This document shows, in pieces, positions 10,150 through 30,163 of a stretch of DNA of 64,000 nucleotides. A program made the position numbers and the translations under genes. Origin of the DNA: a virus; IMG/VR virus record IMGVR_UViG_3300031963_011573, positions 42,061 to 106,060 of that record; one strand, written 5' to 3'. The notes beneath the pieces were generated by a model. That model did no database searches and was not told the origin of the DNA. It saw nothing but the letters and a program-made list of their open reading frames with translations. Each line of letters begins with the position of its first letter. Position 1 is the stretch's first letter.

Positions 10150-10575
10150 ATGGTAAAATTATCTCAACTACTAAAAGAAATATATGCTGAACCTAATAAA
10201 TTTAATTATCCCCCATTAATTAAATCTCTTACAGAATATATGTTGGGAAAAGGAATGAATATTCGTCCTTTACCTAAAGTAAAATTTGTTGATGATGATA
10301 TTGAAAATTCCCAAAATTTCTTTGGAAAAACAGCATATTATAACCCGAATGAAAAATCAATAGTTTTATACACTTATGGGCGTCACCCAAAAGATATAAT
10401 GCGTTCGTTTGCTCATGAAATGATTCACCATGAACAAAATTGTGAAGGGCGTTTAGGTAATACTCCTACTACTAATATCAATGAAGATGATTATCTATAT
10501 GAATTAGAAAAAGAAGCTAATACATTAGGAACCATGATATTTAGAGAATGGACAGACAAAATAACAAATAATTAA
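10150..10575 (+). CDS. HExxH metalloprotease-like protein with capsid-targeting-like N-terminus
   Basis: A 141-residue protein. The zinc-binding signature H89-E90-M-I-H93 (FAHEMIHHEQ) sits in a helix, and a Glu-rich segment (ELEKEAN, 118-124) offers a third metal ligand, as in gluzincin-type peptidases. The first 11 residues (MVKLSQLLKEI) match the shared N-terminal peptide of this gene cluster, with an LKE tripeptide that the phage prohead protease could cut. It may therefore be packaged inside the head. The substrate is unknown and proteolysis is inferred from the motif alone. The next gene begins 2 bases after the stop. Confidence 0.6.
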   Translation: MVKLSQLLKEIYAEPNKFNYPPLIKSLTEYMLGKGMNIRPLPKVKFVDDDIENSQNFFGKTAYYNPNEKSIVLYTYGRHPKDIMRSFAHEMIHHEQNCEGRLGNTPTTNINEDDYLYELEKEANTLGTMIFREWTDKITNN

Positions 10576-10576
10576 T

Positions 10577-11149
10577 ATGTCAGATAACGTTTTAAAAAAA
10601 CAATTCCAAAAAAACGACGTAGAACGCCTACGTAACCTTATTAAAGGTAAACACGGTGACCGAACCACAGTAGGAATTGGTTATAACGGAGAAATAATAG
10701 AAGACCATAAAGAAGGTGATATTTGGGAACAAGGAGGTAAAACTTGGACTATTCGAGATGGAATTAAAGAAAATATCACTAAACTAGATAAATTTAAAAA
10801 AGTAGCAGTTCCTTTATTTTGCCCTGATTGCAAACAAATTATGGATAAACAATTAGATCCACATTATTTTAAATCATATGGTCATTGTCTAGATTGTAGA
10901 ACAAAATTTGAAACTCAACTTAAACTAGAAGGCAAATGGGAGGAATACACTAATTCTACATTCAATGCCGAAATAGATAAACAAATAGAAGAATATAAAG
11001 GTTATTTTGAATCACTCCTTTCAGAAGGAAACCAAGACTATGTTTCCGAAAATGGTGAAATTCAAAAATGGGTTGGTGGAATAGATAAAGAGCGTGCTCA
11101 AAACGCTTTAGATGAGATGGTTAAACACTTAAATTCTTTAAAAAAATAA
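10577..11149 (+). CDS. Zinc-ribbon protein of unknown function
   Basis: A 190-residue protein. Two CxxC knuckles (C82/C85 in FCPDC and C104/C107 in HCLDC) form a probable structural zinc ribbon. The N-terminal part (1-70) is basic, with WTIRDGIKENITKLDKFKK before the ribbon; the C-terminal part is helical and charged. The family resembles a conserved hypothetical of T4-like phages. Its stop overlaps the next start by one base (TAATG). A nucleic-acid-binding role is possible but unproven. Confidence 0.5.
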   Translation: MSDNVLKKQFQKNDVERLRNLIKGKHGDRTTVGIGYNGEIIEDHKEGDIWEQGGKTWTIRDGIKENITKLDKFKKVAVPLFCPDCKQIMDKQLDPHYFKSYGHCLDCRTKFETQLKLEGKWEEYTNSTFNAEIDKQIEEYKGYFESLLSEGNQDYVSENGEIQKWVGGIDKERAQNALDEMVKHLNSLKK

Positions 11150-11772
11150 TGGAAACTTTTACAATGATAACAACTGTCTTAGTAGCACTAATTACAGCTG
11201 TTGTAGGACCTATAATTGTTAATTGGTTTAAAATTAAAATGGAAAAAAAAGATACCTCTACTCCAATGAGAGATGCTCTTGAAACCTCTACTTTAATTGA
11301 CACCCAATTAGAACAAATAATGGATGAATTAGAAAGTGATCGTATTTGGATAGCCCAATTCCATAATGGAGGCTATTTTTACCCTACAGGCAGATCAATC
11401 CAAAAATTCTCCATATTTTATGAAAAATGTACCCCAGAAACACCTACCATCCAGAATACATTCCAAAACATTCCTGTATCTTTATTTCCTAGAGTATTAT
11501 CCAAAATATACAAAGATAATGAATTATCAATTGAGGATGTAGATATAGAAGAAGATACATATGGTTTAGAATATATAACAACACAATTTGGTACTAAATC
11601 AATTTGTATGGTTGGTTTACATAGTTTAGATAATCATTTAATAGGTGTATTAGCTATTTCCTTTCAAAACCCACACCATATTACAAAAGATGAATGGATT
11701 TATATAAGACAAAAAGTAGGAGTTGTAGGAACACTACTTTCCGAATATTTATACACGACAACAAAAAAATAA
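11149..11772 (+). CDS. Membrane-anchored protein with GAF-like soluble domain
   Basis: A 207-residue protein. One N-terminal transmembrane helix (about 6-27, TTVLVALITAVVGPIIVNWF) is followed by Lys-rich residues, so the C-terminal domain should face the cytoplasm. That domain contains DRIWIAQFHNGGYFYPTG and then alternating strands, a pattern resembling GAF/PAS-type sensor folds. No kinase or cyclase domain is attached. It could be an inner-membrane protein made during infection; function unknown. It is translationally coupled to the preceding gene. Confidence 0.5.
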   Translation: METFTMITTVLVALITAVVGPIIVNWFKIKMEKKDTSTPMRDALETSTLIDTQLEQIMDELESDRIWIAQFHNGGYFYPTGRSIQKFSIFYEKCTPETPTIQNTFQNIPVSLFPRVLSKIYKDNELSIEDVDIEEDTYGLEYITTQFGTKSICMVGLHSLDNHLIGVLAISFQNPHHITKDEWIYIRQKVGVVGTLLSEYLYTTTKK

Positions 11773-11774
11773 AA

Positions 11775-12314
11775 ATGGACAATTTTGACTTAAAAAAATT
11801 CTTAAAAGAAAGTAAAGCTCTAGAGAATTTAAACCCTATACTAAAAAAAGAAAACCTTAGTGAAGGTAACATGCGTGGTAAAATCCGCGAAATGATTTTA
11901 GCTGAATTGGGAAACCCAGATGACTATGATTATGATCCAAATGATGATTACGGGGATGATGAATCTAGTTATTTTCCTCATATGCAAGGTTTAGAAGATG
12001 AACCTGAAAGTGAATTAGAGGAAGCTAAAAAGAAAAAAGACGAAGAAGTAGAAGATGTTGAAACAACTGATACTGAAACAACTGATACAACTGAAGAAAT
12101 GCCTGCTGAGGAAGCGCCTGCTGAAGATGCACCTGCTGATGGAGGTGGTTTAGAAGATGTAGCTGCAAACATGGAAGGTACTGAAGGTGAATTAATGGAC
12201 CATTTAATGAGTGCATTTAAAATTGCTAAAGGTATGAACAATGAAAAACTTGAAACACAAGTTGGAAACACACTTAAATTTTTCGTTAGCGAATATATTG
12301 GTGGAGGAGAATAG
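11775..12314 (+). CDS. Acidic protein with capsid-targeting-like N-terminus
   Basis: The start at ATG 11775, 2 bases after the previous stop, gives 179 residues. I prefer it to upstream in-frame ATGs that lie inside the preceding gene, because the result matches its neighbours: MDNFDLKKFLKES is nearly the same opening as the protein at 19353. A second cluster of LxE/IxE sites follows (LSE, then IREMILAEL at 37-45). Residues 46-140 are a very acidic Asp/Glu/Thr/Pro linker with EEAPAEDAPA repeats, and a helical C-terminal domain ends with EYIGGGE. Probably an internal or scaffold-associated head protein; exact role unknown. Confidence 0.55.
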   Translation: MDNFDLKKFLKESKALENLNPILKKENLSEGNMRGKIREMILAELGNPDDYDYDPNDDYGDDESSYFPHMQGLEDEPESELEEAKKKKDEEVEDVETTDTETTDTTEEMPAEEAPAEDAPADGGGLEDVAANMEGTEGELMDHLMSAFKIAKGMNNEKLETQVGNTLKFFVSEYIGGGE

Positions 12315-12345
12315 TAATTAATTAAATCTATATAAAATAAAATCT

Positions 12346-12519
12346 ATGAACACAACAGAAATTTTAGAAGCAATCAAAGTTGCTGTAGCTGATTTAGAGG
12401 CAAACCATGCTAAATCTTCAAAAGCAGCTCGTGGTAGAGCACGTAGTGCAGCTAACACAATTAAAAAACTAGCAGCTGAATTTAAAAAGACTTCAACTGC
12501 AGAAGACAAAGAAGCATAA
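12346..12519 (+). CDS. Small Ala/Lys-rich, histone-like protein
   Basis: A 57-residue gene filling the gap between its neighbours, starting at ATG 12346 and ending at TAA 12517-12519, two bases before the next ATG. The protein is helical and rich in Ala, Lys and Arg, with SSKAARGRARSAANTIKK in the centre, similar in composition to small histone H1-like or DNA-condensing proteins. The first 19 residues are acidic/hydrophobic (EILEAIKVAVADLEA). DNA binding is only a compositional guess. Spacing and codon use support a real gene. Confidence 0.5.
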   Translation: MNTTEILEAIKVAVADLEANHAKSSKAARGRARSAANTIKKLAAEFKKTSTAEDKEA

Positions 12520-12520
12520 A

Positions 12521-13402: not shown

Positions 13403-13863
13403 CCCGCAACCAACTAAAAGATAGAATTAGAAACCTAGTAAAACAATCATATTCCCAACAAACTATTACCCCAGAGGAAGCTGTTCAATATGATGAGTTA
13501 ACTAAATTTCCTGAACTGAAAAAAGTTATAGTTGATTTATTGACAAACGAATATGATAATTTTTTGGAATCTATTGATTGGGTTGCTCCACGTCCTACTA
13601 CATTTAGAATTAACTTAAAAAACGGACAAGAATTTTATCTAATTTATGGTAAACGCAGTTGGATTGCCCAAATAGAAGGCAAAAAATATTATCTAAAAAA
13701 CCTCCCAGAAGAACAACGTGCGGCAGAATCTATAGCTCAAATTTTGAGATATGGAACCCCTGAGAAAAAATCTGAAGAAGAATTTGAACCAGAAGCTGGA
13801 GCAGAAACTCCACCTGCTGAAGAAACACCACCAGCTGAAGAAACACCACCAACAGAAGCATAA
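13399..13863 (+). CDS. Conserved hypothetical protein with acidic Pro-rich tail
   Basis: A 154-residue protein. The N-terminal helix (MTRNQLKDRIRNLVKQS) resembles the openings of neighbouring candidate internal head proteins but lacks the (L/I)xE tripeptide. The central alpha/beta domain (50-115) includes TFRINLKNGQEFYLIYGKRSWIA, a compact beta meander. The C-terminus is a PPAEETPPAEE repeat, disordered and acidic. Both ends overlap neighbours (ATGA at the start, TAATG at the stop), so it lies inside an operon. Function not recognised. Confidence 0.45.
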   Translation: MTRNQLKDRIRNLVKQSYSQQTITPEEAVQYDELTKFPELKKVIVDLLTNEYDNFLESIDWVAPRPTTFRINLKNGQEFYLIYGKRSWIAQIEGKKYYLKNLPEEQRAAESIAQILRYGTPEKKSEEEFEPEAGAETPPAEETPPAEETPPTEA

Positions 13864-14750
13864 TGGATATTTTAGAAAAATTTTTAAATAGTATAGCTTA
13901 CAAGTTTCCTAAAGGATATCCTGATATGAAGGATCCTAACGATGTTGAATTGCTTCATAAGTTATTAAATGAAGTAATTGATTTAGAAGAATTAAAAACC
14001 AAACCTCATTGGGATGAACGAATTAAGGAAAGAGGTACTATATTAGATATAATTAGTTTTCCTAAAGATTATCCTTTATCTAAACAAGAAGTTATTAAAC
14101 AAATTGAAGATGAACTTAATAGGAGAGCTATCAATTTAGAAAAACTTAAAGAAGTTCCATTATCTCTTCCATATAAAATAGGATACAAATTATTCAAACC
14201 ACTACTTAATTATAACGGGAAAAATATATCTCTTGATTTAAAAGTTGAATATACTGTTAAAGGTATTAAAAAAATAGGAATAGGGAACTCATTTGTGGCT
14301 GTAATAAATAATGATACATTAATTACTTTACTATTATTACCAAGTGATGATAATCCTACTATAGAATTATCTTTAGAAAAGCACGAAGAAAGAGAATATG
14401 GAAAACCTAAACCAATAAAAATAATTTCTTCAAGTAATTATGAATTTATCATTACTCCTAAACCAGAAAGCTCTCAATTAATTAAAATTACAGATCTACC
14501 ATATAAAGTAAAAACTTCATATCGTCCTGGAACAACTTTTACTCATGACAAATATGGAACTGGAACTATTATAGCAGCAGCCTCCGCTGGGACTAGATCA
14601 GGTGAGCCTGATAGTAGAGGAATAGTCGATTGGGTTGAAGTAGATTTTGGTAAACCATATGTTTTAGGCGGGCAATTTAAAAAAACAAGAACTATAAAAG
14701 ACGTATATACTTCAATTTCTCCTGACTTAGACTCCCCAGCAGCTGAATAA
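13863..14750 (+). CDS. Hypothetical protein with UvrD-C/KOW-like beta module
   Basis: A 295-residue protein. The N-terminal helical segment (about 1-110, EKFLNSIAYKFPKGYPDM) is followed by a beta-rich middle. Residues 221-265 (THDKYGTGTI, then VDWVEVDFG) look like the small beta barrel with a xHxxxGxGxI signature at the end of UvrD-type helicases and other Tudor/KOW-like proteins. It ends in DSPAAE, and Ala-Ala-containing tails recur at 17454 and 20327. No catalytic residues are evident. The stop lies 56 bases before the metallophosphoesterase gene, where a new promoter seems to begin. Confidence 0.4.
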   Translation: MDILEKFLNSIAYKFPKGYPDMKDPNDVELLHKLLNEVIDLEELKTKPHWDERIKERGTILDIISFPKDYPLSKQEVIKQIEDELNRRAINLEKLKEVPLSLPYKIGYKLFKPLLNYNGKNISLDLKVEYTVKGIKKIGIGNSFVAVINNDTLITLLLLPSDDNPTIELSLEKHEEREYGKPKPIKIISSSNYEFIITPKPESSQLIKITDLPYKVKTSYRPGTTFTHDKYGTGTIIAAASAGTRSGEPDSRGIVDWVEVDFGKPYVLGGQFKKTRTIKDVYTSISPDLDSPAAE

Positions 14751-14753
14751 GTA

Positions 14754-14785
14754 TTTGGTTTTATAAAAAACTTTTCTTATATTTA
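14754..14785 (+). promoter_or_regulatory. Candidate host-type (-33/-7) promoter
   Basis: TTTGG at 14754-14758 and TATATTTA at 14778-14785 are 19 bases apart, close to the Bacteroidota pattern TTTG - 19 to 21 bases - TAnnTTTG. It lies between the end of the 13863 gene and the ATG at 14807, giving a short untranslated leader. A similar TTTTTTCTTATATT stretch precedes the primase (8427-8440). Matching is by eye, and the final base of the -7 box is A, not G. Confidence 0.3.
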
Positions 14786-15904: not shown

Positions 15905-16413
15905 AACCAGCAGATTTAGTTACACCTGAATTAATTCAATATTGTATTCAATTTAACACAATAGTGGTTTTAGGTTACACTAAAACAGGTAAACTTCCAA
16001 TAGCTAAAAAAATTGCCCAAGAATTAGATCGTCCTTTATTTATTTCTGATGAGTATTTAGAATTAAAAGATCCATTAGATGCTTTTATGAGTGATGTTAC
16101 TTGGCATCAAAGAAGAGGAAATCAAATAGTAATTGAAGGTACTTTATGTTTTAGATTATTAAGAAAAGGTTTAGAATTATCTAATTTTAATACTGATTTA
16201 ATTATCAAAACTAAATGTAATGATGAAACAATAAAACATTTTTATAGAATAGATGGTGAGGAATCTAAAATTAAACGAGCTCTCTCATTTAATCAAGGTT
16301 TAAATAAAATATGGGATGAATATAGAGGAATATTACAAACTAAAACATATAATGAAATCCCTAAATTTATAGAATTAGAAACCACACTCCCTGAATATTC
16401 GTATTTCTCATAA
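15901..16413 (+). CDS. P-loop kinase-like protein
   Basis: A 170-residue protein. A Walker A loop G25-YTKTG-K31 follows a hydrophobic strand (TIVVLGYTKTGK), and residues 76-80 (IVIEG) fit a second strand carrying an acidic residue, as in small-molecule kinases. The usual Ser/Thr after the Walker Lys is replaced by Leu (GKLP), which is unusual and may weaken nucleotide binding. Coupled to the metallophosphoesterase by a 4-base overlap, it may form an end-processing pair (kinase and phosphatase). That pairing is inference. Confidence 0.5.
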   Translation: MKPADLVTPELIQYCIQFNTIVVLGYTKTGKLPIAKKIAQELDRPLFISDEYLELKDPLDAFMSDVTWHQRRGNQIVIEGTLCFRLLRKGLELSNFNTDLIIKTKCNDETIKHFYRIDGEESKIKRALSFNQGLNKIWDEYRGILQTKTYNEIPKFIELETTLPEYSYFS

Positions 16414-16423
16414 TATTTATTAA
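16413..16423 (+). promoter_or_regulatory. Candidate phage promoter motif before the ParB-like gene
   Basis: ATATTTATTAA lies 6 bases before the ATG at 16430 and overlaps the end of the preceding gene's stop region. Same family as the other ATATTTATAA sites. Confidence 0.4.
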
Positions 16424-16429: not shown

Positions 16430-16888
16430 ATGATTAAATTAATTAATTTACTCAAAGAAATTACTGGGTTCTCAAATTGGAAAATACCTTCCTCGTCTCA
16501 ACTTAAACAAGAGTTTAAGATAGAACAAGAAATGAAGGGTAATGAATTTTGGGAAGATGAAGAAGCTTTTTTAAATGCTGTTAAAAACGGTAAAATTGTA
16601 ACTGTTACTCCTTCTGAAGATCAAGATATAGATTATAGAAGCGGAACCGAATCATATGAAGAACTTTTAGGTCTTATTAAATCATATCGATCATATCCTG
16701 AATTTAGAAATGAAAAAACATTGCAATCTATTTATGATGGATTTAAAAATAATTCTCCTATGGATTTACCGATAATTATAGAAGACGATAACGGGTATAG
16801 AAGAATTTTTTCTGGGAATACAAGAATGGATATAGCTTTTCAATTAGGTATAAACCCGAAAGTATTACTCATTAAAGGAGATTTATGA
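16430..16888 (+). CDS. ParB-like domain protein with capsid-targeting-like N-terminus
   Basis: A 152-residue protein. The C-terminal half resembles a ParB/Srx-type nuclease-like domain: LPIIIEDDNGYRRIFSGNTR then MDIAFQLGINPKVLLI (113-148), the usual strand - GxHR-like loop - helix arrangement with GNTR in place of GxxR. The first 11 residues (MIKLINLLKEI) share the LLKE peptide of the candidate packaged proteins. It overlaps the next gene by 4 bases, and both open with the same peptide. It could bind DNA and possibly CTP, or act as a nuclease; which one is not shown by the sequence. Confidence 0.55.
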   Translation: MIKLINLLKEITGFSNWKIPSSSQLKQEFKIEQEMKGNEFWEDEEAFLNAVKNGKIVTVTPSEDQDIDYRSGTESYEELLGLIKSYRSYPEFRNEKTLQSIYDGFKNNSPMDLPIIIEDDNGYRRIFSGNTRMDIAFQLGINPKVLLIKGDL

Positions 16889-17454
16889 TTAGATTAGTAG
16901 ATTTATTAAAAGAAATAAACGAGGCCAAACAAGTAGGAGACATCTATCATTTTACTGATACTGATACTATAACCTCTATGATCAAAGATTATGGAGGCAT
17001 AACCTTAGACCCTTCATTCTCTAGCTTTGCAGCAGATAAGTACTATTCCTTTACCAGAAACCCCAACTTAGGCACTCTTTCAGAAGAAAAACACCACGTT
17101 AGAATAAAACTTAATGGAGATAAAATGTCCAATAAATATAAATTTGAGCCATATGCTGATTTAGAAAGTGGTGAAGATTTATACTCTAAAAACGCTCCTA
17201 ATTATGAATCTGAAGAACGAATTAATTCTAAAAAATATGGAGAAATAAATTTAACTCCATATATTGAAGAAATAACTATCATTAGTCCTGATAGTTTTAA
17301 AGAATATCTTGAAAGTTATCATTCTGGTACTAAATATTATGATGAAATATTAAATGATTATAATTTTGTTTTAGATTGGATTAAATCTAAAAATATACCT
17401 CTTAAATTCTCCCAAGCTAGATCCACATCCTCCATTAGGAGAGCAGCTGAATAA
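16885..17454 (+). CDS. ART-like (ADP-ribosyltransferase fold) protein with capsid-targeting-like N-terminus
   Basis: A 189-residue protein opening with MIRLVDLLKEI. Residues 20-60 read IYHFTDTDTITSMI, then a beta strand and YYSFTRNPNL, followed by VRIKLNGDKMSNKYKFEPY, an ESEERINSKK segment (about 109-118) and PYIEEITII. This order (YHxT, SFTR, LDG-like strand, E-E-R-I, YIEEI) resembles phage proteins with an ADP-ribosyltransferase-like fold. A catalytic Glu could lie in ESEERI. T4 packages the ART Alt in its head, which makes the signal peptide notable. Activity is unproven. Confidence 0.5.
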   Translation: MIRLVDLLKEINEAKQVGDIYHFTDTDTITSMIKDYGGITLDPSFSSFAADKYYSFTRNPNLGTLSEEKHHVRIKLNGDKMSNKYKFEPYADLESGEDLYSKNAPNYESEERINSKKYGEINLTPYIEEITIISPDSFKEYLESYHSGTKYYDEILNDYNFVLDWIKSKNIPLKFSQARSTSSIRRAAE

Positions 17455-17465: not shown

Positions 17466-18575
17466 ATGGAACGTTTACGACAACTTATAAAAGAAGTACT
17501 TTCAACTCCACCTAAAAAAGATAGCTGTAATTGTGGTTGTCATGATTGTGATAATGTAGGTAATACTGGTGTAGTATTAAATGAAAGTTTAGTTAAAAAA
17601 GATATATTGTCGGAAAATCTGCGTTATCACGTGGATAATAAACTACCACTAACTGAAAACACATTCCGTTATGGTTCTCAAGCATTCCTTGATTTATGGT
17701 CGGAAGCTCGTTATTTATATTTACGTGAAATAATTCATGTAAATGATGATGATAAAGAAATTTTACTTGAAACTAATTTAGGTGAATATGGAATGTATGA
17801 AGGTAACAAAGTACCTTTAGATTTACCTATGTTAGAGGAAAACCAATACCAACCTATCTTAGAAGATATTAAGATGTATGGTAAAATATACGAGGCTGTA
17901 AATATAGAAAATTCCTACAAACTAGATGATATTAAATCAAACGAAGTAGGAAATGAATTTATTTTTACAGATAAACATGGTATTAAACGTAAATTGATGT
18001 TTTTAAGAGGAAATAGCGTTAAATTGTTATGGTTTAACCCCACCACTCAAGAATGGACAACAGACGATATTCCTAGTAAATATGAAGATGAAAAAGTAAT
18101 GAATACTTTTGGTATGTTATTAGTTAAAGTAATATTACCAAAATATGGTTCATTTAATTTTCAAGCTTTAAATGCCGCTCGTTACCGTTTATTTAGAGCA
18201 TTAATCTATAATAATTTAGACACTTCAAAATATGAAATGGATTATGACGATGAAAACAAATCAATTGAAGTTCATCAAATAGATACATTAACAGAAGAAG
18301 ATAAAAAGAAAACTCCACCAATTGGAAAACCAAAACGTGGTGGATCTAAAAAATTCTACGTTTATGTTAGAAATAAAGGTAAAGTTAAAAAAGTATCTTT
18401 TGGACAAGTAGGAATGTCTGCTAAAATAAATGACCCTAAAGCACGCAGAGCATTTGCTGCACGTCACGATTGTAAAAATAAAACAGATAGAACTAAACCT
18501 TCATATTGGAGTTGTAGGCTTCCAAGGTACGCATCTTTATTAGGTCTAAAAAGTTCTTTTAGCGGTTTCTGGTAA
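17466..18575 (+). CDS. Conserved head-region protein, Cys-rich at both ends
   Basis: A 369-residue protein. MERLRQLIKEV is the capsid-targeting-like peptide, followed at once by a cysteine cluster C21-N-C-G-C-H-D-C28 that could bind metal. The middle (about 60-120: FRYGSQAFLDLWSEARYLY, LETNLGEYGMYEG, KVPLDLPMLEE) matches a conserved structural-region family of T4-like phages as I recall it. The C-terminal 60 residues (ARRAFAARHDCKNK, YWSCRL) are a compact Cys/His/Arg-rich module also known as an appendage of other phage proteins. Probably an internal head protein; function unknown. Confidence 0.5.
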   Translation: MERLRQLIKEVLSTPPKKDSCNCGCHDCDNVGNTGVVLNESLVKKDILSENLRYHVDNKLPLTENTFRYGSQAFLDLWSEARYLYLREIIHVNDDDKEILLETNLGEYGMYEGNKVPLDLPMLEENQYQPILEDIKMYGKIYEAVNIENSYKLDDIKSNEVGNEFIFTDKHGIKRKLMFLRGNSVKLLWFNPTTQEWTTDDIPSKYEDEKVMNTFGMLLVKVILPKYGSFNFQALNAARYRLFRALIYNNLDTSKYEMDYDDENKSIEVHQIDTLTEEDKKKTPPIGKPKRGGSKKFYVYVRNKGKVKKVSFGQVGMSAKINDPKARRAFAARHDCKNKTDRTKPSYWSCRLPRYASLLGLKSSFSGFW

Positions 18576-18590: not shown

Positions 18591-18749
18591 ATGAAAAAAT
18601 CTGAATTAAAACAACTTATCAAAGAAGAAATTATCCAACAAAAACTTTTAGAGGAAAAAAATAAAAAAGCCTCTAAAATTAACCAGAATCTTTCAAATTT
18701 GATAGAAAAAATGAAAAAAGACTTCAATATAGAAGATGAGCGATTTTGA
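18591..18749 (+). CDS. Small helical protein with capsid-targeting-like N-terminus
   Basis: A 52-residue protein from ATG 18591 to TGA 18747-18749, overlapping the next gene by 14 bases. It opens with MKKSELKQLIKEEIIQQKLL, almost the same as the starts at 20046 and 23668, and the rest is a charged amphipathic helix. With IKE at 10-12 and LLE at 19-21 it could be cut into short peptides by the prohead protease. It looks like little more than the targeting peptide plus a helix. Function unknown. Confidence 0.5.
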   Translation: MKKSELKQLIKEEIIQQKLLEEKNKKASKINQNLSNLIEKMKKDFNIEDERF

Positions 18750-19350
18750 TAAAATAAAACCTTTACAAAATAAAATAGATACTCTTTTACTAGATATAAA
18801 AGATGTAAAACCTAATCTATATGAAGACTATTCAAACATAGTTGATTATTCTATAAATGGTTTTATTGATTTGGGAGCTGAATATATTAAAAACAACCCA
18901 CAAGAATTTGAAATTTTTCTAAAAAAATTAAATGACATTATTAAAATATTAATATTTATTAAAACTAAAGAAAACATTCAAGAGGAAAAAGAAAAACGCG
19001 ATAGGTGTTTACGTATTGCAGATCGCAAATACGATAAACCATCCGCTTACAAATCTGGTGCTGTTGTTAAGTGTCGTAAAGGTATGATTTGGAAAGGTTT
19101 AAAAGAAGAAGTAATTCTTGAAAAAGTAAAAGAAACCCTCCGCACTTGGTTTTCCCGTAAAGGAACACCTGGTAAAAAAGGTGGATGGGTTGATTGTAAT
19201 GCACCTATTAAAAAAGATGGCAAAATAACAGGATATAAATCATGCGGTAGAGAAGAAGGAGAAAAACGCTCAAAATACCCTTCATGTCGTCCTACACCTT
19301 CACAATGTAAAACACCTGGTAAAGGTACTAAATGGGGTAAAACAAAATAG
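18736..19350 (+). CDS. Basic Cys/Lys-rich phage protein, DUF5872-like C-terminus
   Basis: A 204-residue protein. The first 80 residues are helical. Residues 88-120 hold RDRCLRIADRKYDKPSAYKS followed by GAVVKCRKG, a recurring phage motif with two Cys. The C-terminal 70 residues are Lys/Gly/Cys-rich (RTWFSRKGTPGKKGGWVDCN, SCGREEGEKR, PSCRPTPSQCK) and resemble the DUF5872 module of phage proteins; the Cys pattern suggests metal binding. The strong positive charge fits DNA contact inside the head. It overlaps the small gene before it by 14 bases. Role unknown. Confidence 0.5.
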   Translation: MSDFDKIKPLQNKIDTLLLDIKDVKPNLYEDYSNIVDYSINGFIDLGAEYIKNNPQEFEIFLKKLNDIIKILIFIKTKENIQEEKEKRDRCLRIADRKYDKPSAYKSGAVVKCRKGMIWKGLKEEVILEKVKETLRTWFSRKGTPGKKGGWVDCNAPIKKDGKITGYKSCGREEGEKRSKYPSCRPTPSQCKTPGKGTKWGKTK

Positions 19351-19352: not shown

Positions 19353-19793
19353 ATGGATAACTTTGATTTAAGAAAATATTTAGCTGAAGGTAAATTATAT
19401 GAAGCAGCTATGGCTTGTCCTTTACCTACCCAAGATTTAGAACTTAACACCAAAAATAGAGACTCAGCTATTAAAGCAGATTATATTAAATATGGTCCTT
19501 TAAATGTTGATGAACCTGGAGATTATTGGGACGAATTAGCAGAACATTGGGATACAACAGTTGAAGCTGCTAAACAATCTTTATGTGCAAATTGTGCAGC
19601 ATTTGATATTTCCCCAAGAATGGAAGATTGTATGCCTGGACCATTACAAGATGAAGATGGAAAATTAGGATATTGTTGGATGCATAGTTTTAAGTGCCAT
19701 TCAGCTCGTACTTGTAGGACATGGGCTAAAGGTGGTCCTATTACACAAGATAGTATATCTTATGATTGGCAAGAGCGTAAAGAAAGTGAGTAA
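19353..19793 (+). CDS. Cys-rich conserved phage protein with capsid-targeting-like N-terminus
   Basis: A 146-residue protein. MDNFDLRKYLAEG gives LAE at 10-12, and the opening copies that of 11775 (MDNFDLKKFLKES). Seven Cys (C22, C78, C81, C93, C108, C115, C121) sit in a compact domain with CANCAAFD, GYCWMHSFKCHSARTC and WAKGGPI. The CxxC and CxxxxxxC spacing suggests an iron-sulfur or zinc centre, and I recall similar proteins in other large phages annotated as iron-sulfur-like. Redox activity is not shown. It starts 2 bases after the previous stop and overlaps the next gene by 8 bases. Confidence 0.5.
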   Translation: MDNFDLRKYLAEGKLYEAAMACPLPTQDLELNTKNRDSAIKADYIKYGPLNVDEPGDYWDELAEHWDTTVEAAKQSLCANCAAFDISPRMEDCMPGPLQDEDGKLGYCWMHSFKCHSARTCRTWAKGGPITQDSISYDWQERKESE

Positions 19794-20049
19794 ACCATAC
19801 ATTGACATAGAAGTTACAGACAAATATATTATTCGTGAGTTTAACGAAAATATAGATCCAATTGAATTAAAATGGCATAGGGATTTAGAGAGTCGTACTG
19901 TTGAAATTTTAGAAGATACAGATTGGAAACTTCAATTAGATAATAGCTTGCCTACCTCACTAAAAGAACATATATTTATACCTGCATTAGAATGGCATCG
20001 TGTAATAAAAGGAACAGGAACATTAAAGTTAAAAATACATAAATTATGA
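19786..20049 (+). CDS. Small cupin-like conserved phage protein
   Basis: The likely start is GTG 19786 (87 residues), overlapping the previous stop by 8 bases; ATG 19762 or 19732 would overlap it far more and add residues unlike the family. The conserved core WHRDLESRTVEILED, then WKLQLDNSLP, FIPALEWHRVIKG and LKLKIHKL has His residues at the ends of beta strands, like a small cupin barrel. Such proteins recur in T4-like phages next to the Cys-rich gene seen upstream here. The ligand is unknown. Its stop overlaps the next ATG (ATTATGA). Confidence 0.45.
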   Translation: MSKPYIDIEVTDKYIIREFNENIDPIELKWHRDLESRTVEILEDTDWKLQLDNSLPTSLKEHIFIPALEWHRVIKGTGTLKLKIHKL

Positions 20050-20327
20050 AAAAAACTGATTTAAAAAATACAATCAAAGAGGAAATTAAAAAAGTATTAA
20101 TGGAGGAAACGAGTAGAACATCTATACCTCTTATCCGTGGAGCTCTTAATCAAATAGAAGAGAATGGTAAAATAGAAACTATGAATGCTATGCTTAGAAA
20201 TCTTACAGATGAAGAAGCTAGACAATTCAATTTACTTGTTCAAAAAGGAATAGGAAAAGAAATTAAAAGGATCCCAACTAATTCCCCAGCAGCTGATCCT
20301 CGTTTAACCCCAGGAACAACAGATTAA
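20046..20327 (+). CDS. Small helical protein with capsid-targeting-like N-terminus
   Basis: A 93-residue protein that opens with MKKTDLKNTIKEEIKKVLME, containing IKE at 10-12 and LME at 18-20. The rest is helical (ALNQIEENGKIETMNAMLRN) with a disordered tail (NSPAADPRLTPGTTD). Last gene of its operon: a strong terminator follows at 20380. Likely a small internal head protein by analogy with its neighbours; function unknown. Confidence 0.5.
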   Translation: MKKTDLKNTIKEEIKKVLMEETSRTSIPLIRGALNQIEENGKIETMNAMLRNLTDEEARQFNLLVQKGIGKEIKRIPTNSPAADPRLTPGTTD

Positions 20328-20436: not shown

Positions 20437-20910
20437 ATGAATATATTTTATATCAATGAAAATCCGATTATTGCTGCTCGTGAATTAACGGATGATCATA
20501 TTAGAAAAATGCAAATTGAAAGTGCACAAATGTGTAGTACTGCTCATTGGGTAAGTGGTTCAACTGCCCCTTACAAACAATCACATACTAACCACCCATC
20601 AGCAAAATGGACAAGAGAATCTATACAACATTATAGATGGTTAGTTCAACATGGTTTAGAAATATGTGATGAATTTGAAAAACGATATGGTAAAAGACAT
20701 AAAACAAAAGATGTACTTGAATGGTTACAAAATAACGAACCTAATATCCCTGATACCGGATTTGTTAACCCTCCTCAGTGTATGCCCGATCAATATAAAT
20801 TAGAAGATACTGTGGAAGCGTATAAGAATTTTTATGTTAATGACAAGGTAAAAGTAAAAAAATTAGATTGGAAAAAATTAAACAATAAACCAAGATGGAT
20901 AAACGAATAG
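20437..20910 (+). CDS. Conserved phage protein of unknown function
   Basis: A 157-residue protein. The conserved features are an opening MNIFYINENPIIAARELTDD, KMQIESAQMCSTAHW, a HTNHPSAKWTRES stretch, LVQHGLEICDEFEKRYGKRH, and a closing PPQCMPDQYKLEDTVEAYKN. This family is common in T4-like and cyanobacterial phages, to my recollection without an assigned function. Conserved His and Cys hint at metal binding or catalysis. It is the first gene after a terminator and overlaps the FAD oxidoreductase by 16 bases, so the two are co-translated. Confidence 0.5.
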   Translation: MNIFYINENPIIAARELTDDHIRKMQIESAQMCSTAHWVSGSTAPYKQSHTNHPSAKWTRESIQHYRWLVQHGLEICDEFEKRYGKRHKTKDVLEWLQNNEPNIPDTGFVNPPQCMPDQYKLEDTVEAYKNFYVNDKVKVKKLDWKKLNNKPRWINE

Positions 20911-23667: not shown

Positions 23668-24570
23668 ATGAAAAAAACTCGTTTACTTGAAATTATACGT
23701 GAAGAAATATCTAGTGCTCTAAGAGAAGGTGAAGCTGAAGAAAAAGCAGCTAAAGCGGCTGCACTTAAAGCTACTGATTTAGAAATTAAAGCTTTGCAAA
23801 AGAAAAAAGCTGACATGATGAGAACTGGTGTAGCTGAAGCTACACTTGAAGAAGATCTTTTAAATGAAACCCCAATCTATGATGTATCTGACATGGAAGG
23901 TTTTAAATCAGCTTTAGATAAATTTAGAGATGAGAATGTATCAAAAAGTAAAGCTCTTAATCTTTTATTAACTAAATTAGAAGATGAAGGTACAGTTGAT
24001 ACTAATCAATTAAGTAAAGATATGGGGGTTGATACAGCTGCATTCAATAACCAGGAAATTAGAAAATTTTTAAATCGCCCTGAAGATGAATTTTTTGAAA
24101 ATCCTAAAACTGGAGAAGAATTACTTGATTTTACACCATATTTAACTAAAGCAGATAAAAAAAGAGGTAGAGCAGCAGGCGAAAAAACAACTACTGAACC
24201 TAAAATATCAGCTAAATCAAAAAGCACAACATCAACAGGAACTAAAGAACCTAAAAAAGCTACTTTAACTAAAGGGGATGATGGATTTGATGATGTAACT
24301 TACTCTAAACCTGAAACAACTACTAAACCAAAAGCTACAGAAACGGACAAAGCAGATGCTGCTGCTTCTAAAACTCCTAAATTAGATAAATTAGCTAATA
24401 ACCAAGATGCTCTTTTAAAAGCTCAAAAAGAAACCCAAAGTAAAATGAAAGAACTAGCTGGTAAGATTAGAGGAGCTGAAGGGGCTGAAAGAGAAAATTT
24501 AATGGGCGAACTTAAAAAATTAAATAAATTAAATGGAGAAATTCAATCTAAATTGGATAAACTATTTTAA
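23668..24570 (+). CDS. Internal-head-like protein with capsid-targeting-like N-terminus
   Basis: A 300-residue protein. MKKTRLLEIIREEISSALRE contains IRE and LRE tripeptides, then an Ala/Lys/Glu helix (to about 70) and a small globular segment (75-155, with DVSDMEGFKSALDKFRDENV). A Thr/Lys/Pro low-complexity linker (175-240) follows, and the C-terminus is a coiled coil (KAQKETQSKMKELAGKIRGA and ELKKLNKLNGEIQSKLDKLF). The layout suggests a rod-like, DNA- or scaffold-associated head protein. A terminator follows at 24609. Function not recognised. Confidence 0.5.
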   Translation: MKKTRLLEIIREEISSALREGEAEEKAAKAAALKATDLEIKALQKKKADMMRTGVAEATLEEDLLNETPIYDVSDMEGFKSALDKFRDENVSKSKALNLLLTKLEDEGTVDTNQLSKDMGVDTAAFNNQEIRKFLNRPEDEFFENPKTGEELLDFTPYLTKADKKRGRAAGEKTTTEPKISAKSKSTTSTGTKEPKKATLTKGDDGFDDVTYSKPETTTKPKATETDKADAAASKTPKLDKLANNQDALLKAQKETQSKMKELAGKIRGAEGAERENLMGELKKLNKLNGEIQSKLDKLF

Positions 24571-24650: not shown

Positions 24651-25217
24651 ATGACTATAAAAACTAAAATAATACTCGGACTATCAGCTATATTAACAAT
24701 ATGTTTAATAGCATTATATGGTTTATTTAAATTGTATCAACATGAAAAAGAAGAAAGAAAACGATACAATAACAACATGATTGCTCTTGTAGAAGATAAA
24801 AGTAAACAACAATCACTCACGTTAAATGAACTTAAAAAGTTATACCCAAAATATGATTCTTTAGCTAAAGTGCTTAATATCAAAACTAAAAATATTACTG
24901 ATATAGTAGAAACTAGATACCGTTTTAAAGATTCTATTTTAACATCTACTATATTAAAAAAAGATAGTATATCTGAAAAAGCATATTTTGCATTAACTGA
25001 AAAATGTTATAAATTTTCGGGGTTTATTAAAAAAGATTCCATATCATTCACCAATAAAGAATTTAAAGATAATTTAACAACATTTTTATACAAAGATTGG
25101 GAGAAAAAATATTTATGGGGACTGTTAAAATTTAACCCATTTTATACTTCCAAAGTATATAGTGAATGCATGCAAGATACAATTGCAGTCATTAACAATA
25201 TAAAAATTAAAAAATAA
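24651..25217 (+). CDS. Membrane-anchored protein with coiled-coil region
   Basis: Starting at ATG 24651, just after the terminator, gives 188 residues; an in-frame GTG at 24609 is rejected. One N-terminal transmembrane helix (about 7-27) is followed by a charged coiled-coil-like stretch (LVEDKSKQQSLTLNELKKLY), then a small domain with two Cys. This resembles membrane-anchored proteins of Bacteroidota phages (DUF6549-like) whose role is not established. A spanin-like or lysis-accessory role is possible. It overlaps the terminase start by one base (TAATG). Confidence 0.5.
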   Translation: MTIKTKIILGLSAILTICLIALYGLFKLYQHEKEERKRYNNNMIALVEDKSKQQSLTLNELKKLYPKYDSLAKVLNIKTKNITDIVETRYRFKDSILTSTILKKDSISEKAYFALTEKCYKFSGFIKKDSISFTNKEFKDNLTTFLYKDWEKKYLWGLLKFNPFYTSKVYSECMQDTIAVINNIKIKK

Positions 25218-26809
25218 TGGGCCAAGACCTAAAACAGGCAATAAGAGAAGAATACATAAAATGCGCTTCATCCCCAGCATATTTTATGAAAAGATACTGC
25301 TACATCCAACATCCAAAACGTGGCCGCATTCAATTTAACTTATACCCATTCCAAGAACGCGTTTTAACTTTATTTCAAGAAAATCCATATTCAATTGTTT
25401 TAAAATCTAGACAGCTAGGTATTTCAACACTATCGGCGGGTTATTCTTTATGGTTGATGATGTTTCACCAAGATAAAAATGTACTTTGTATTGCAACAAA
25501 ACAAGAAACTGCTAAAAACATGGTTACAAAGGTTAAGTTTATGTATAATAACTTACCATCTTGGCTTAAATTTCCAAACAAACCAGAAGAAGAAAATAAA
25601 TTAACACTTCGATTACCAAACGGTTCCCAAATTAAAGCAACTTCAGCCTCTAGTGATGCAGGTCGTTCAGAAGCCGTTTCTTTATTGATAATAGATGAGG
25701 CTGCTTTTATTAACAATATAGGTGAGATATGGGCCTCAGCTCAACAAACATTAGCAACTGGTGGTGGTTGTATTGCATTATCTACACCTTATGGTACAGG
25801 TAACTGGTTCCATAAAACATGGGTTGCTGCTGAATTAAGTGAAAATAGCTTTTTACCTATCCGTTTACCCTGGAGTGTGCATCCTGAAAGAGACCAATCA
25901 TGGAGAGACCAGCAAGATGCTGATTTAGGTCCTAAAATGGCTGCTCAAGAATGTGACTGTGATTTTTCCACCTCAGGTGATACTGTATTTTTGGCAGATG
26001 AAATAGAATTTTACGAAAAAACATTTATTACAGACCCAATCGAAAAACGTGGAATTGATCAAAATTTATGGATCTGGGAACCAGCTGATTATTCAAAAAA
26101 CTATTTAATTACAGCGGATGTTGCTCGAGGTGATGGAGCGGATTACTCTACATTTCATATTTTAGATATTGAAACATACAAGCAAGTAGGAGAATATAAA
26201 GGACAAATCAGTACAAAAGATTTTGGACATTTACTGGTTGCAATTGCAACAGAATATAATAATGCTTTACTTGCTCCTGAAAATTCTAGTATAGCTTGGT
26301 CAACTATTCAAACTATCCTTGATAGAGGGTACCATAATTTGTATTATTCACCCAAAAGCAATGCTTTAACAGTTGATAGTTATTTTGACCCATACATGGA
26401 TCATAGTAAAATGACACCTGGATTTACAATGTCCTCAGCTACTAGACCTATTTCAATAGGTAAATTTCAAGAAGCTGTTCGAGATAGAGGTGTTATTATC
26501 CAATCAGCTAGACTGATAGAGGAAATGAAGGTATTTATATGGAGAAATGGCAGACCAGAAGCACAACCTGGATACAATGATGATTTAATTATGGCATTTG
26601 CAATCATGTCTTTTTTACGAGAAACAGCATTTAAACTAAGACAAAATGGTATGGAAATGACCAAAAGTATGCTTAACAGTATCCATACTAATAATACAAC
26701 ATATTCGGGAGGTTATTCAAATGCCCAACCAAATAAATACAATAACAACCCATTTAAAATAGATAACCCTTATTCAAACGGTCAAGAAGATATTTCATGG
26801 CTAATCTAA
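25217..26809 (+). CDS. terL: Terminase large subunit, T4 gp17 type
   Basis: A 530-residue DNA-packaging motor with ATPase and nuclease. The ATPase uses a deviant Walker A (K63-SRQLGIST-71, with Lys at the beginning rather than before Ser/Thr), Walker B LLIIDEA (D160, E161) and the coupling motif STPYGTGNWF. The nuclease half begins with D301 in YLITADVARGDGADYSTFHI, and a later acidic motif is GYNDDLIMAF. The length is shorter than T4 gp17 (610) but typical. It packages the genome into the prohead through the portal encoded next. I saw no small subunit in this window. Confidence 0.9.
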   Translation: MGQDLKQAIREEYIKCASSPAYFMKRYCYIQHPKRGRIQFNLYPFQERVLTLFQENPYSIVLKSRQLGISTLSAGYSLWLMMFHQDKNVLCIATKQETAKNMVTKVKFMYNNLPSWLKFPNKPEEENKLTLRLPNGSQIKATSASSDAGRSEAVSLLIIDEAAFINNIGEIWASAQQTLATGGGCIALSTPYGTGNWFHKTWVAAELSENSFLPIRLPWSVHPERDQSWRDQQDADLGPKMAAQECDCDFSTSGDTVFLADEIEFYEKTFITDPIEKRGIDQNLWIWEPADYSKNYLITADVARGDGADYSTFHILDIETYKQVGEYKGQISTKDFGHLLVAIATEYNNALLAPENSSIAWSTIQTILDRGYHNLYYSPKSNALTVDSYFDPYMDHSKMTPGFTMSSATRPISIGKFQEAVRDRGVIIQSARLIEEMKVFIWRNGRPEAQPGYNDDLIMAFAIMSFLRETAFKLRQNGMEMTKSMLNSIHTNNTTYSGGYSNAQPNKYNNNPFKIDNPYSNGQEDISWLI

Positions 26810-26819
26810 AAATATAAAC

Positions 26820-28712
26820 ATGGCAGATACTAGATTATTCTCAAGATTAAAACGATTGTTTTCAACAGACGTAATCATTCGAAATGAAGGAGGTGAGTTG
26901 AAAGTAATGGATATTAATAAAATCCAACAATCAGGTGATTATGAAACAAATGCCTTAGTTGATAGATTTAACCGAATATACACTAACTCACATACCTCAA
27001 TTTATGGTTACCAAAGCAGCTTTAACTATCAAACTCTACGCCCCACTCTTTACTCAGAATATGATGCTATGGACACAGATGCTATCGTTGCCTCTGCGTT
27101 AGATATTTTAGCTGATGAATGTACTTTACGTAATGATATGGGTGAAGTACTCCAAATTAGAAGTTCAGACGAGGATGTTCAACGTGCTTTATATAATTTG
27201 TTCTATGATGTATTGAACGTTGAATTTAACTTATGGCCTTGGATTCGTAATATGTTGAAATACGGTGATTTCTTTTTAAAACTAGAAATTTCCGAAAAAT
27301 TTGGTGTATATAATGTAATTCCTTACAATGCATTTCATATTGAAAGACAAGACGGATATGATAAAGATCATCCAAATGATATAAGATTCAGATTTGATCC
27401 AGATGGAATTTCATCCCCATCAAATTATGGATACTATAACGTACCAAACTCTGCAAATCAATCAAACGATATATATTTTGACAATTACGAAATGGCTCAT
27501 TTCCGTTTATTAACGGACACTAACTTTTTACCTTATGGTAGATCATATCTTGAACCAGGCCGTAAGTTATTTAAGCAATATACGATGATGGAAGATGCGA
27601 TGTTAATTCACCGTATCGTTAGAGCACCTGAAAAACGTATATTCTCAATTAATGTTGGTAATATTGCTCCTGCTGAAGTAGAAAACTTTATGCAGAAAAC
27701 AATATCCAAAATGAAACGTACTCCATATATTGATCAACAAACAGGTGATTATAACTTAAAGTACAATATGCAAAACTTGCTTGAGGACTTTTACATCCCA
27801 GTTAGAGGAAACGATCAAGCAACCAAAATTGATACTTTAGGTGGTTTACAATACGATGGTATTACAGATGTAGAATATTTAAGAGACAAATTATTTGCTG
27901 CCCTTAAAGTTCCAAAAGCGTTTATGGGGTATGAAAAAGATTTAACTGGTAAGGCAACATTAGCTGCTGAAGACATTCGTTTTGCTCGTACAATTGAACG
28001 CATTCAACGTATTGTTGTATCTGAATTAACTAAAATTGCTCTAGTTCATTTATATACTCAAGGATACACTGATGAGAATTTAACTAATTTTGAACTTTCA
28101 TTAACTACACCTTCAATCATATATGACCAAGAAAGAGTAGCATTGATGAAAGAAAAAACAGAATTAGCTATCTCAATGATAGAAAATAAATTGATGCCTT
28201 CTGATTGGATATATGAAAATTTATTCCATTTAAGTGAAGATCAATACGATGAATATAGAGACTTGATTCTTCAAGATGCTAAACGTAAATTCCGTGTAAC
28301 TCAAATTGAAAACGAAGGTAATGATCCACTTGAAACAGGTAAATCTTACGGTACACCACATGATTTAGCTTCTTTATATGGAAGAGGAAGATATGAAGGC
28401 GAAGTACCTGAAGGATATGATGAAAAAGAACCATTAGGAAGACCAAAAGAAAAAGTAACAGATCGAAACACTCAAGATAGTGTTTTTGGAAAAGATAGAA
28501 TAGGAGCTATAGGAGCTAAAGTAGATGGAGATGAATCAAACTCAACTAAACCAGAATATAAAGGTGGATCTCCATTAGCACTTGAAACTAAAATTAAACG
28601 AAACAAAAATAGTAAAATGTTTAATAACATTAAAAATCAAAAGAAACAAATTATTTTTGAATCGGATATTAGAGGAAATTCATTGTTAGATGAATCACAA
28701 ATACGAGAGTAA
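26820..28712 (+). CDS. gp20: Portal vertex protein, T4 gp20 type
   Basis: A 630-residue portal. Conserved features are an N-terminal YDAMDTDAIVASALDILADE segment, LPYGRSYLEPGRKLFKQYTM, a crown/stem region with ILIHRIVRAPEKRIF-like sequence, and the YDGITDVEYLRDKLFAALKV followed by KAFMGYEKDLTGKATLA. The C-terminal 120 residues are charged and low in complexity. Gene order (terminase, portal, protease, scaffold, capsid) is the T4 order. The portal forms the dodecameric ring that nucleates head assembly and binds the terminase. Confidence 0.9.
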   Translation: MADTRLFSRLKRLFSTDVIIRNEGGELKVMDINKIQQSGDYETNALVDRFNRIYTNSHTSIYGYQSSFNYQTLRPTLYSEYDAMDTDAIVASALDILADECTLRNDMGEVLQIRSSDEDVQRALYNLFYDVLNVEFNLWPWIRNMLKYGDFFLKLEISEKFGVYNVIPYNAFHIERQDGYDKDHPNDIRFRFDPDGISSPSNYGYYNVPNSANQSNDIYFDNYEMAHFRLLTDTNFLPYGRSYLEPGRKLFKQYTMMEDAMLIHRIVRAPEKRIFSINVGNIAPAEVENFMQKTISKMKRTPYIDQQTGDYNLKYNMQNLLEDFYIPVRGNDQATKIDTLGGLQYDGITDVEYLRDKLFAALKVPKAFMGYEKDLTGKATLAAEDIRFARTIERIQRIVVSELTKIALVHLYTQGYTDENLTNFELSLTTPSIIYDQERVALMKEKTELAISMIENKLMPSDWIYENLFHLSEDQYDEYRDLILQDAKRKFRVTQIENEGNDPLETGKSYGTPHDLASLYGRGRYEGEVPEGYDEKEPLGRPKEKVTDRNTQDSVFGKDRIGAIGAKVDGDESNSTKPEYKGGSPLALETKIKRNKNSKMFNNIKNQKKQIIFESDIRGNSLLDESQIRE

Positions 28713-28723
28713 CAAATTTTTAT

Positions 28724-28734
28724 ATATTTATAAA
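28724..28734 (+). promoter_or_regulatory. Candidate phage promoter motif before the GIY-YIG remnant
   Basis: ATATTTATAAA lies 12 bases before the ATG at 28747. It still faces a degraded gene, so it may now serve the 28858 gene downstream. Confidence 0.35.
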
Positions 28735-28746
28735 TAAACAAACATT

Positions 28747-28854
28747 ATGGCTTATATTTATAGACATGTTACTTCTGAAAATATTCCTTTTTATATAGGA
28801 ATTGGGAGTGATAAAAAATATAAAAGAGCATACAAATACATTTGGAAAAAATAA
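28747..28854 (+). pseudogene. Truncated GIY-YIG homing endonuclease remnant
   Basis: A 35-residue open frame, ATG 28747 to TAA 28852-28854. It reads MAYIYRHVTSENIPFYIGIG followed by SDKKYKRAYKYIWKK, that is, the first strand (YIYRH), the FYIGIG motif and the first basic helix of a GIY-YIG nuclease, and then stops. Catalytic Glu and DNA-binding tail are missing. It sits between the portal and the next head gene, a typical homing-endonuclease site. It looks like a 5' remnant after deletion of the rest. Confidence 0.6.
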
Positions 28855-28857
28855 AAT

Positions 28858-29715
28858 ATGTTAATTCGTCATTCAAAATATAAAAATACGGGTATACTTT
28901 TTGAACTTTTAGTTCGTCAAATTACCACTGATACACTAGACGGTAAAGATTCCCCTGCAAAAGATATACTTAAAAAATATTTCGTTAAAACGGAATTGGG
29001 TCGTGAATATAGGTTATATGAAACGTTACTTAAAAAAACATCCCTTACAGAAACTAAAGCAAATATTGTAGTTTCTACTTTAACTGAATCATCTAAAAGT
29101 TTAAATAGAGGGGTAATTAAAAGACAAAAATATAATTTGATTAGTGAAATTCAAAAACATTATGATTTAAATGAATTTTTTAATCATAAACTTCCTAATT
29201 ACAAAGTATATGCTGCTTTTTATACATTGTTAGAAATTACCCATTCTCAAACCTCTATTAATCCTGAACAAACTATCACAAATAAAGTTACTATTTTAGA
29301 GCATTTAACAGCTGCTCAAATTAAAGAAAGTGCTGTTCGTGATGAAGTTTTAACAGAACTAGACAACTCAGATAAAGATGTTAAGTTTCTTGCATATAAA
29401 ATATTAATGGAGAAATTTAATAACAAATACGATGATTTAAGCCTAAACCAAAAAATCATCCTTAAAGAATACATCAATTCAGTAGATAATACATCTCGCT
29501 TAAAAGAATTTTACACAGATAAAATAAACGAGATTAAAGTTGAATTAAAAAAATTAAACAACAAAACAAACAACCCAGTTACAAAAATTAAAATTAACGA
29601 GATTATCTCTGTTATCAATCCACCAGCAAAAAATGCTAAAATAACAGATAATGATTTAGTTGATTTACTACAGTATTGTGATTTAATCAATGAATTAGAA
29701 ACTGTAAATGGATAA
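28858..29715 (+). CDS. Conserved hypothetical head-module protein
   Basis: A 285-residue, strongly helical, Lys/Glu-rich protein beginning MLIRHSKYKNTGILFELLVR. No enzyme motif. The C-terminal half is a long coiled coil (KLKKLNNK-type sequence around 225-245). It starts 3 bases after the GIY-YIG remnant and overlaps the next gene by 8 bases. Its position in the T4-like portal-to-protease interval suggests a head-assembly role. Related to a conserved protein of T4-like phages of Bacteroidota as far as I can tell; function unknown. Confidence 0.5.
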   Translation: MLIRHSKYKNTGILFELLVRQITTDTLDGKDSPAKDILKKYFVKTELGREYRLYETLLKKTSLTETKANIVVSTLTESSKSLNRGVIKRQKYNLISEIQKHYDLNEFFNHKLPNYKVYAAFYTLLEITHSQTSINPEQTITNKVTILEHLTAAQIKESAVRDEVLTELDNSDKDVKFLAYKILMEKFNNKYDDLSLNQKIILKEYINSVDNTSRLKEFYTDKINEIKVELKKLNNKTNNPVTKIKINEIISVINPPAKNAKITDNDLVDLLQYCDLINELETVNG

Positions 29716-30163
29716 GTTAAAAGAAATAATCCGTAAAAAACTCAAAGAAATGAGTGCTACCAATGTTGGTGGTGCTACTGCTTCCCCTGGTGAAGGTATA
29801 GGAATGGCTACTAAACCCGCGTTTAATAAAAATAAAAACGCTAAAGGTGCTAAAAATATATACTATTACAAGTTAGGATTTAAAAATGTCCCAAACATTA
29901 AACCAAAATCTTACGATAAGAAAAAATTATGGGAAGAAGATAAAGAACCATCCGCAGCAAAAAAATTTCAAAACGAAAGAATTGACGAATTTACTCAAAT
30001 TGAAAATCTTTTAAAAGACTTATCCCCTCTTGTATCAAATGCTAAAAATGATACTTTAGAATACTACGCAGCTAACCCAGGTTCATTTGATATTTATAAA
30101 CCGTCTTCAATGGTTTTAGCATATATTCAAAAAGCAGTAGATTTATTAAAACAAAAACAATGA
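29708..30163 (+). CDS. Small head-module protein with capsid-targeting-like N-terminus
   Basis: A 151-residue protein opening with MDKLKEIIRKKLKEMSATN (LKE at 12-14). A Gly/Ala/Thr-rich linker (about 20-40) leads to a conserved block KGAKNIYYYKLGFKNVPNIK, then a helical C-terminus with YAANPGSFDIYKPSSM. The overlaps (8 bases with 28858, 4 with 30160) place it in the prohead operon. It occupies the position of the small T4 prohead core proteins (gp67/gp68) without recognisable similarity. Function inferred from context only. Confidence 0.5.
   Translation: MDKLKEIIRKKLKEMSATNVGGATASPGEGIGMATKPAFNKNKNAKGAKNIYYYKLGFKNVPNIKPKSYDKKKLWEEDKEPSAAKKFQNERIDEFTQIENLLKDLSPLVSNAKNDTLEYYAANPGSFDIYKPSSMVLAYIQKAVDLLKQKQ

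Follow-up and report, generated by a model that had tools for sequence, protein, structure and literature searches.

Why would a series of unrelated phage proteins begin with the same kind of short peptide? The question arises in a 64-kb stretch of viral DNA (the window; bases 42061-106060 of a 106-kb T4-like viral contig), in which a first-pass annotation had noted at least eleven proteins that open with a short amphipathic peptide ending in (L/I)xE, and had proposed that they form a large packaged set of head proteins delivered to the host with the DNA. We find that the peptide is a separable tag behind which non-homologous bodies stand. Judged from sequence comparison, the peptides are very probably (about 0.85) T4-type capsid-targeting sequences (CTSs) cut by the protease gp21, with the variable members acting as head cargo and the conserved members in core assembly. 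This reading is supported by the T4 CTS spacing of the peptides, by a gp21 gene beside the portal and gp23 genes and by upstream motifs of the late type. It is supported further by swaps of tags between homologous bodies, by (L/I)xE where a body begins and, in relatives, by tags that mimic the scaffold tail. We infer packaging, cleavage and delivery, and take entry into the host with the DNA by analogy from T4.

Proteins are named below by the first base of their open reading frame (ORF) in the window. The eleven peptides are:

10150..10179, + strand: tag MVKLSQLLKE of a HExxH metallopeptidase-like protein (ORF 10150-10575).
11775..11810, + strand: tag MDNFDLKKFLKE (ORF 11775-12314); the orthologous body in the related contig G008 has MNKQFNRMQKLAGILTE instead.
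16430..16459, + strand: tag MIKLINLLKE (ORF 16430-16888), on the protein called ParB-like by the first-pass annotation.
16885..16923, + strand: tag MIRLVDLLKE-INE of a protein with a predicted ADP-ribosyltransferase (ART) fold (ORF 16885-17454), the body starting from AKQVG.
17466..17495, + strand: tag MERLRQLIKE of a Cys-rich protein (ORF 17466-18575) with a C-terminal match to PHROG_7595.
18591..18626, + strand: tag MKKSELKQLIKE on a 52-aa ORF (18591-18749).
19353..19388, + strand: tag MDNFDLRKYLAE (ORF 19353-19793); the G008 and G001 orthologues have MINLVDILSE or MIKLLEILSE.
20046..20081, + strand: tag-like MKKTDLKNTIKE (ORF 20046-20327), assigned by matrix score.
23668..23703, + strand: tag MKKTRLLEIIRE of a conserved coiled-coil-like protein 5' of the terminase gene (ORF 23668-24570).
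29708..29749, + strand: tag-like MDKLKEIIRKKLKE of a conserved protein between portal and gp21 (ORF 29708-30163).
30160..30201, + strand: tag-like MKKTLQDQYLLIKE of a conserved protein before gp21 (ORF 30160-31980), with a second site, FLTEA, downstream.

All eleven N-termini were as originally described, and each peptide ends in (L/I)xE. The ATG at 11775 lies inside ORF 11694; we take it to be the correct start because orthologues in seven other contigs begin at the same (M)DNFDLKKFLKE-type peptide. The 52-aa ORF 18591 contains hardly anything beyond its tag. Just downstream of this near-bare tag (window 18591-19350), a DUF5872-type protein, 18736, lacks the tag that its relatives bear.

Genetic analysis of the 10-residue T4 IPIII leader has assigned residues 4 and 7 to targeting and residues 8 and 10 to processing, and gp21 cleaves after L/I-x-E (PMC9026906). 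The IPIII leader reads MKTYQEFIAE. From the T4 mutational genetics we fixed a strict rule beforehand (a hydrophobic residue at -6, another at -3, [LIV] at -2 and Glu at position 0, this Glu falling at residue 10-13), so that circularity from training on the window was avoided. ORF calling was mechanical, each frame being taken from its first ATG, and expected counts came from position-matched internal windows, with shuffles as a second control. A loose regular expression had been discarded in favour of this rule and a trained matrix because it gave too many chance matches.

The strict rule is satisfied by 8 of the 11 N-termini, with MVKLSQLLKE, MIKLINLLKE, MERLRQLIKE, MDNFDLKKFLKE, MDNFDLRKYLAE and MKKSELKQLIKE fitting it exactly. 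Across this contig 10 of 156 genes match it, where internal windows predict 1.2 (P about 6e-7). The motif search in related contigs, which are mostly incomplete, gave matches in 128 of 1,866 genes (expected 14.3; shuffles 14.7), or 66.5 of 958 when weighted by protein family (expected 7.7). The excess is thus far above chance. There was no excess in the first 50 kb of crAss001 or of Cellulophaga phi14:2 (a single match in each, where 0.3 and 0.5 were expected), Bacteroidota phages that lack gp21 and have a similar or higher AT content. Mel-JY01, which has gp21 and lies outside the clade, showed only a small excess (7 versus 2.0), so the expansion of the tag may be clade-specific. It is scarcely credible that the peptides are a compositional likeness, produced where AT-rich genomes give Lys/Leu/Ile/Glu-rich N-terminal helices by chance or where 5' ends are kept for translation. 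Early genes with loose matches do exist, but this explanation is removed by the position-matched windows, the shuffles and the AT-rich control phages, and tag classes of differing sequence replace one another on one body.

The relationship to T4 also holds in the reverse direction. When a matrix trained solely on the window peptides was used to rank 280 T4 proteins, gp24 came first, 61.1 fourth and gp67 eighth; the strict rule picks out IPII, IPIII, gp24, 61.1 and three others. The propeptide of the vertex protein gp24, MAKINELLRE, is nearly MIKLxxLLKE and is annotated as cleaved by gp21, presumably after residue 10, although gp24 is a shell protein and not cargo. T4 gene 61.1 (NC_000866 18966-19130) encodes a 54-aa protein whose start, MKTFKEFIKE, is close to the IP leader; T4 proteins such as this one gain a packaging prediction.

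We searched viral contigs with the pattern MDNFDLKK[FY]LxE, which gave at least 120 stretches, and with the pattern KSELKQLIKEE. These two tag classes occur on at least 195 proteins with at least 108 unrelated body clusters. Among the matches listed, a second [LIM]xE follows within about 20 residues in 95 of 108 clusters, usually at a distance of 5-7 or 11-12 residues from the first; shuffling gave 41, and a control stretch 13 of 96. Tags have also been exchanged on individual bodies. The 19353 body follows FDLRKYLAE here and INLVDILSE in G008, the 11775 body is preceded by FDLKKFLKE or FNRMQKLAGILTE, and a further body is tagged with MDNFDLKQYLAE in G005 but with MKKEQLRQLIKEE in G001. The 16885 body (KQVGxLYHFTD) stands behind MIRLVDLLKEINE, MKKSQLKQLIKEEILKALNE or the KFPKGYPDM module of another protein, each time with (L/I)xE directly before it. 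The 17466 body is untagged in its G008, G009 and G011 orthologues, with stop codons upstream. A DNA-level cassette was rejected as the basis of exchange because the tags differ in codons and in upstream sequence. An apparent tag loss in one family (family 200 in G010) was dropped, since reading upstream revealed the tag with a non-ATG start.

The tags themselves gave no Pfam or PHROGs matches, and the bodies gave few. The YKFPKGYPDM N-terminal module, of about 47 residues, is common to eight body clusters (window 13863-14750; L384 2881-3558) and, having replaced the tag once on a 16885-type body, is possibly another tag class. In G003 (97666-102496, L179-L180), about ten consecutive small genes far from the head genes carry F(D/N)LKKYLAE or KHSELKQLIKEE-type tags on unrelated bodies. 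Three Mel-JY01 paralogues (L469 10276, 10923 and 12056) have N-termini of MIKLKSLLKE-IISDRVWHLTT or similar, with a body that may be ART-like.

The window places the tagged set in a T4-like head module, in which the T4 gene order of terminase, portal gp20, gp21-type protease, gp22-type scaffold and gp23-type capsid protein is kept. The contig is related to Flavobacterium phage immuto; its portal shares 60% identity with the immuto portal and 51% with that of Mel-JY01. The features of the module are:

25217-26809 and 26820-28712, + strand: terminase and portal gp20.
31983..32615, + strand: gp21-type prohead protease (Peptidase_S77, E 7.8e-28; PHROG_207, E 2.4e-51).
32804..34219, + strand: gp22-type scaffold, Glu-rich.
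34181..34216, + strand: scaffold C-terminal tail VFKRMQKLAGII, copied at the N-termini of tagged proteins in related phages.
34245..35924, + strand: gp23-type major capsid protein, with a predicted cut after QLVVE (codon end 34427).

The two profile matches bear out the gp21 homologue reported at 31983. Its N-terminus, MNKQLLIE|T, resembles that of T4 gp21, and [LIV]xE lies within the first nine residues of 161 of 174 gp21 sequences. GELDHP and GISSRG, conserved His and Ser motifs that we take to be the gp21 segments bearing the catalytic residues, are invariant across the aligned sequences. The expected gp23 maturation site keeps [VI]xE in all 53 sequences, and the predicted mature gp23 of this contig contains no [LI]xE. 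A gp21-type protease was found in all four contigs longer than 160 kb that the peptide search alone had retrieved. Two GIY-YIG homing endonuclease-like ORFs, recognized by eye, lie among the structural genes (window 38379-39095 and 60265-60918).

One tag class is itself part of the scaffold. Eighty-one scaffold proteins end in the sequence F.RMQKLAGI(I/L), and 13 other proteins, with 11 different bodies between them, carry it at their N-terminus; in nearly all of the 13, xE comes next. No other copy is present in the set of 9,040 ORFs. Because the scaffold-type tag replaces FDLKKFLKE on an 11775-type body, the tag classes appear equivalent, and we infer the docking mode of each. Mimicry of the scaffold tail would point to a second way of docking into the prohead.

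Putative cut sites also recur where bodies are joined. The metallopeptidase-like domain of 10150 occurs alone behind a tag or within larger proteins, and [LI]xE directly precedes it in 20 of 20 distinct sequences (4 stand-alone, 16 inside larger proteins), with a varying middle residue. In two families (L/I)xE at the body boundary is conserved while this residue varies. More generally, junctions in 32 body groups carry [LIVM]xE in 41% of cases, against 14% in controls. A GSGYKPLxE linker is rare, with three cases.

The genes for the peptides share upstream signals with the structural genes. The motif AATATTTAT lies 5' of 16430:

16412..16420, + strand: AATATTTAT motif, with copies at 17453 and 23642 preceding 17466 and 23668.

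Further positions in the window are 22195, 51164, 62956 and elsewhere. The motif (wider form TAATATTTATAA) has 17 copies against 6.2 expected, mostly directly 5' of genes in the structural half. We found TAATATTTATAA to be common 5' of structural genes and TTCGTATATTTAA to be common 5' of early genes, and we regard the two as candidate promoter classes. The late-type TAATATTTATAA is more common on peptide genes (43/138 versus 222/1,874 others, P 1e-8) and the early-type TTCGTATATTTAA is rarer (1/138 versus 160/1,874, P 1e-4).

What the bodies might do is suggested by their folds. The model of 16885 (pLDDT 78.9) had Tpt1 (E 1e-4) and DarT (probability 0.98) as top Foldseek matches, and its predicted DarT/Tpt1-like ADP-ribosyltransferase fold is therefore supported at the fold level. 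The ART-like label of the first-pass annotation thus stands at that level, whereas Pfam did not confirm its ParB-like label for 16430. In the 10150 family HExxH is conserved in 32 sequences; the best fold matches, IrrE and selecase, have a weak E of 0.06, and Pfam matches are below cut-off. A polyvalent-protein domain match (PF18818, E 0.08) is likewise below cut-off. Other tagged bodies are P-loop kinase-like or nucleotidase-like. By analogy with T4, the variable tagged proteins probably act early on the host: the injected T4 proteins IPI, IPII and IPIII, which have only the leader in common, inhibit type IV restriction enzymes (PMC12373910), and T4 Alt is annotated as a packaged ADP-ribosyltransferase. 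A pyrimidine dimer DNA glycosylase of the T4 DenV type (Pyr_excise, E 8.6e-7) is encoded at window 20437-20910.

On the capsid-targeting reading, the tag would dock each protein onto the assembling prohead core, and gp21 (31983) would cleave at the end of the tag, behind its (L/I)xE, and often again at another (L/I)xE a few residues further along, freeing the mature protein inside the head. The putative head cargo comprises 10150, 11775, 16430, 16885, 17466, 18591, 19353 and 20046, and would probably enter the cell together with the DNA and there counter or reprogram the host. A core assembly role is proposed for 29708, 30160 and probably 23668. We see roughly even odds that this amounts to a general plug-in loading system, in which several tag classes, including a copy of the scaffold tail plus a cut site, fit any domain, larger fused cargo is cut at its domain joints by the prohead protease inside the head, and the packaged set acts on the host.

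It is also possible, if rather unlikely, that the tagged proteins are mainly prohead-core or assembly factors, cut up and lost at maturation like T4 gp22, gp67 and gp68, with little delivered. The conservation of 29708, 30160 and the scaffold between portal and gp23, that of 23668 immediately 5' of the terminase gene, and the many internal [LI]xE motifs in the larger two (13 in 30160, 20 in gp22) fit such a role. Core proteins are unlike most of the tagged set, however: its genes are patchily distributed and unrelated, and their single-domain products often resemble enzymes (ART fold, HExxH, P-loop kinase-like, nucleotidase-like). Delivery as originally proposed for the whole set holds as a prediction for the variable members, whereas 29708 and 30160, which occupy the position of T4 gp67/gp68, look more like conserved head-core or assembly proteins than like delivered cargo, and so does 23668, probably an assembly protein.

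Several observations weigh against capsid targeting as the general explanation. Protein 20046 breaks the rule at -3, where it has Thr, and the fit of 29708 and 30160 is only loose. Matches also occur in terminase N-termini, in a RecA-like protein and, outside the window, in a small protein adjacent to the baseplate genes (-6332), so false positives arise when the motif is used on its own. No site is present at many junctions of the general junction test, which is noisy: it includes false queries, and in some cases the body begins beyond the second site. Several peptide-bearing contigs lack gp21, but these are probably fragments because gp23 is missing there too. We found no virion proteomics in the literature for the clade, immuto included. 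The protein beside the baseplate genes has a similar N-terminal helix, and amphipathic N-terminal helices are common, as would be expected if the peptide directed proteins elsewhere (host membrane, baseplate or replication compartment) and (L/I)xE were incidental. We consider this very improbable, as the Glu register is fixed, (L/I)xE recurs at body boundaries in different contexts, T4 gp24, IPII and IPIII match, one tag class is the scaffold tail, and phages without gp21 show no excess.

Capsid targeting by a T4-type peptide, which the comparisons strongly support, has precedents. T4 IPI, IPII, IPIII and Alt share with the present proteins a short N-terminal peptide, its hydrophobic/Glu spacing, an (L/I)xE cut, non-homologous bodies, gp21 and variable gene content. 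The systems differ in that T4 has four such cargo proteins, with at least 10 IPs across T-even phages, compared with often 8-20 motif genes per long contig here; in the several exchangeable tag classes, including the scaffold-tail copy; in the fusion of bodies within larger proteins with sites at the joints; and in belonging to Bacteroidota phages. Accounts of the giant phages SPN3US and phiKZ describe many different head proteins, packaged and ejected, and a gp21-related prohead protease that removes propeptides, a likeness at the level of description. Polyvalent proteins (PMC5512222) include zincin-like metallopeptidase, ART and ParB domain kinds predicted to be delivered with DNA, and some homologues here are multidomain; however, most domains here stand alone, each with its own tag, and the domain families are unmatched at Pfam cut-offs. 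The set in this clade is best read as a greatly enlarged version of the T4 internal-protein system.

In T4, a ten-residue peptide loads proteins into the head and has a handful of natural cargoes. The same logic appears to be used here on dozens of unrelated proteins, in a group of Bacteroidota phages that is common in aquatic habitats. With the tag as a guide, head cargo can be predicted from sequence alone, and the cultured relative immuto allows such predictions to be tested. Uncharacterized small phage genes can therefore be sorted into likely injected proteins.

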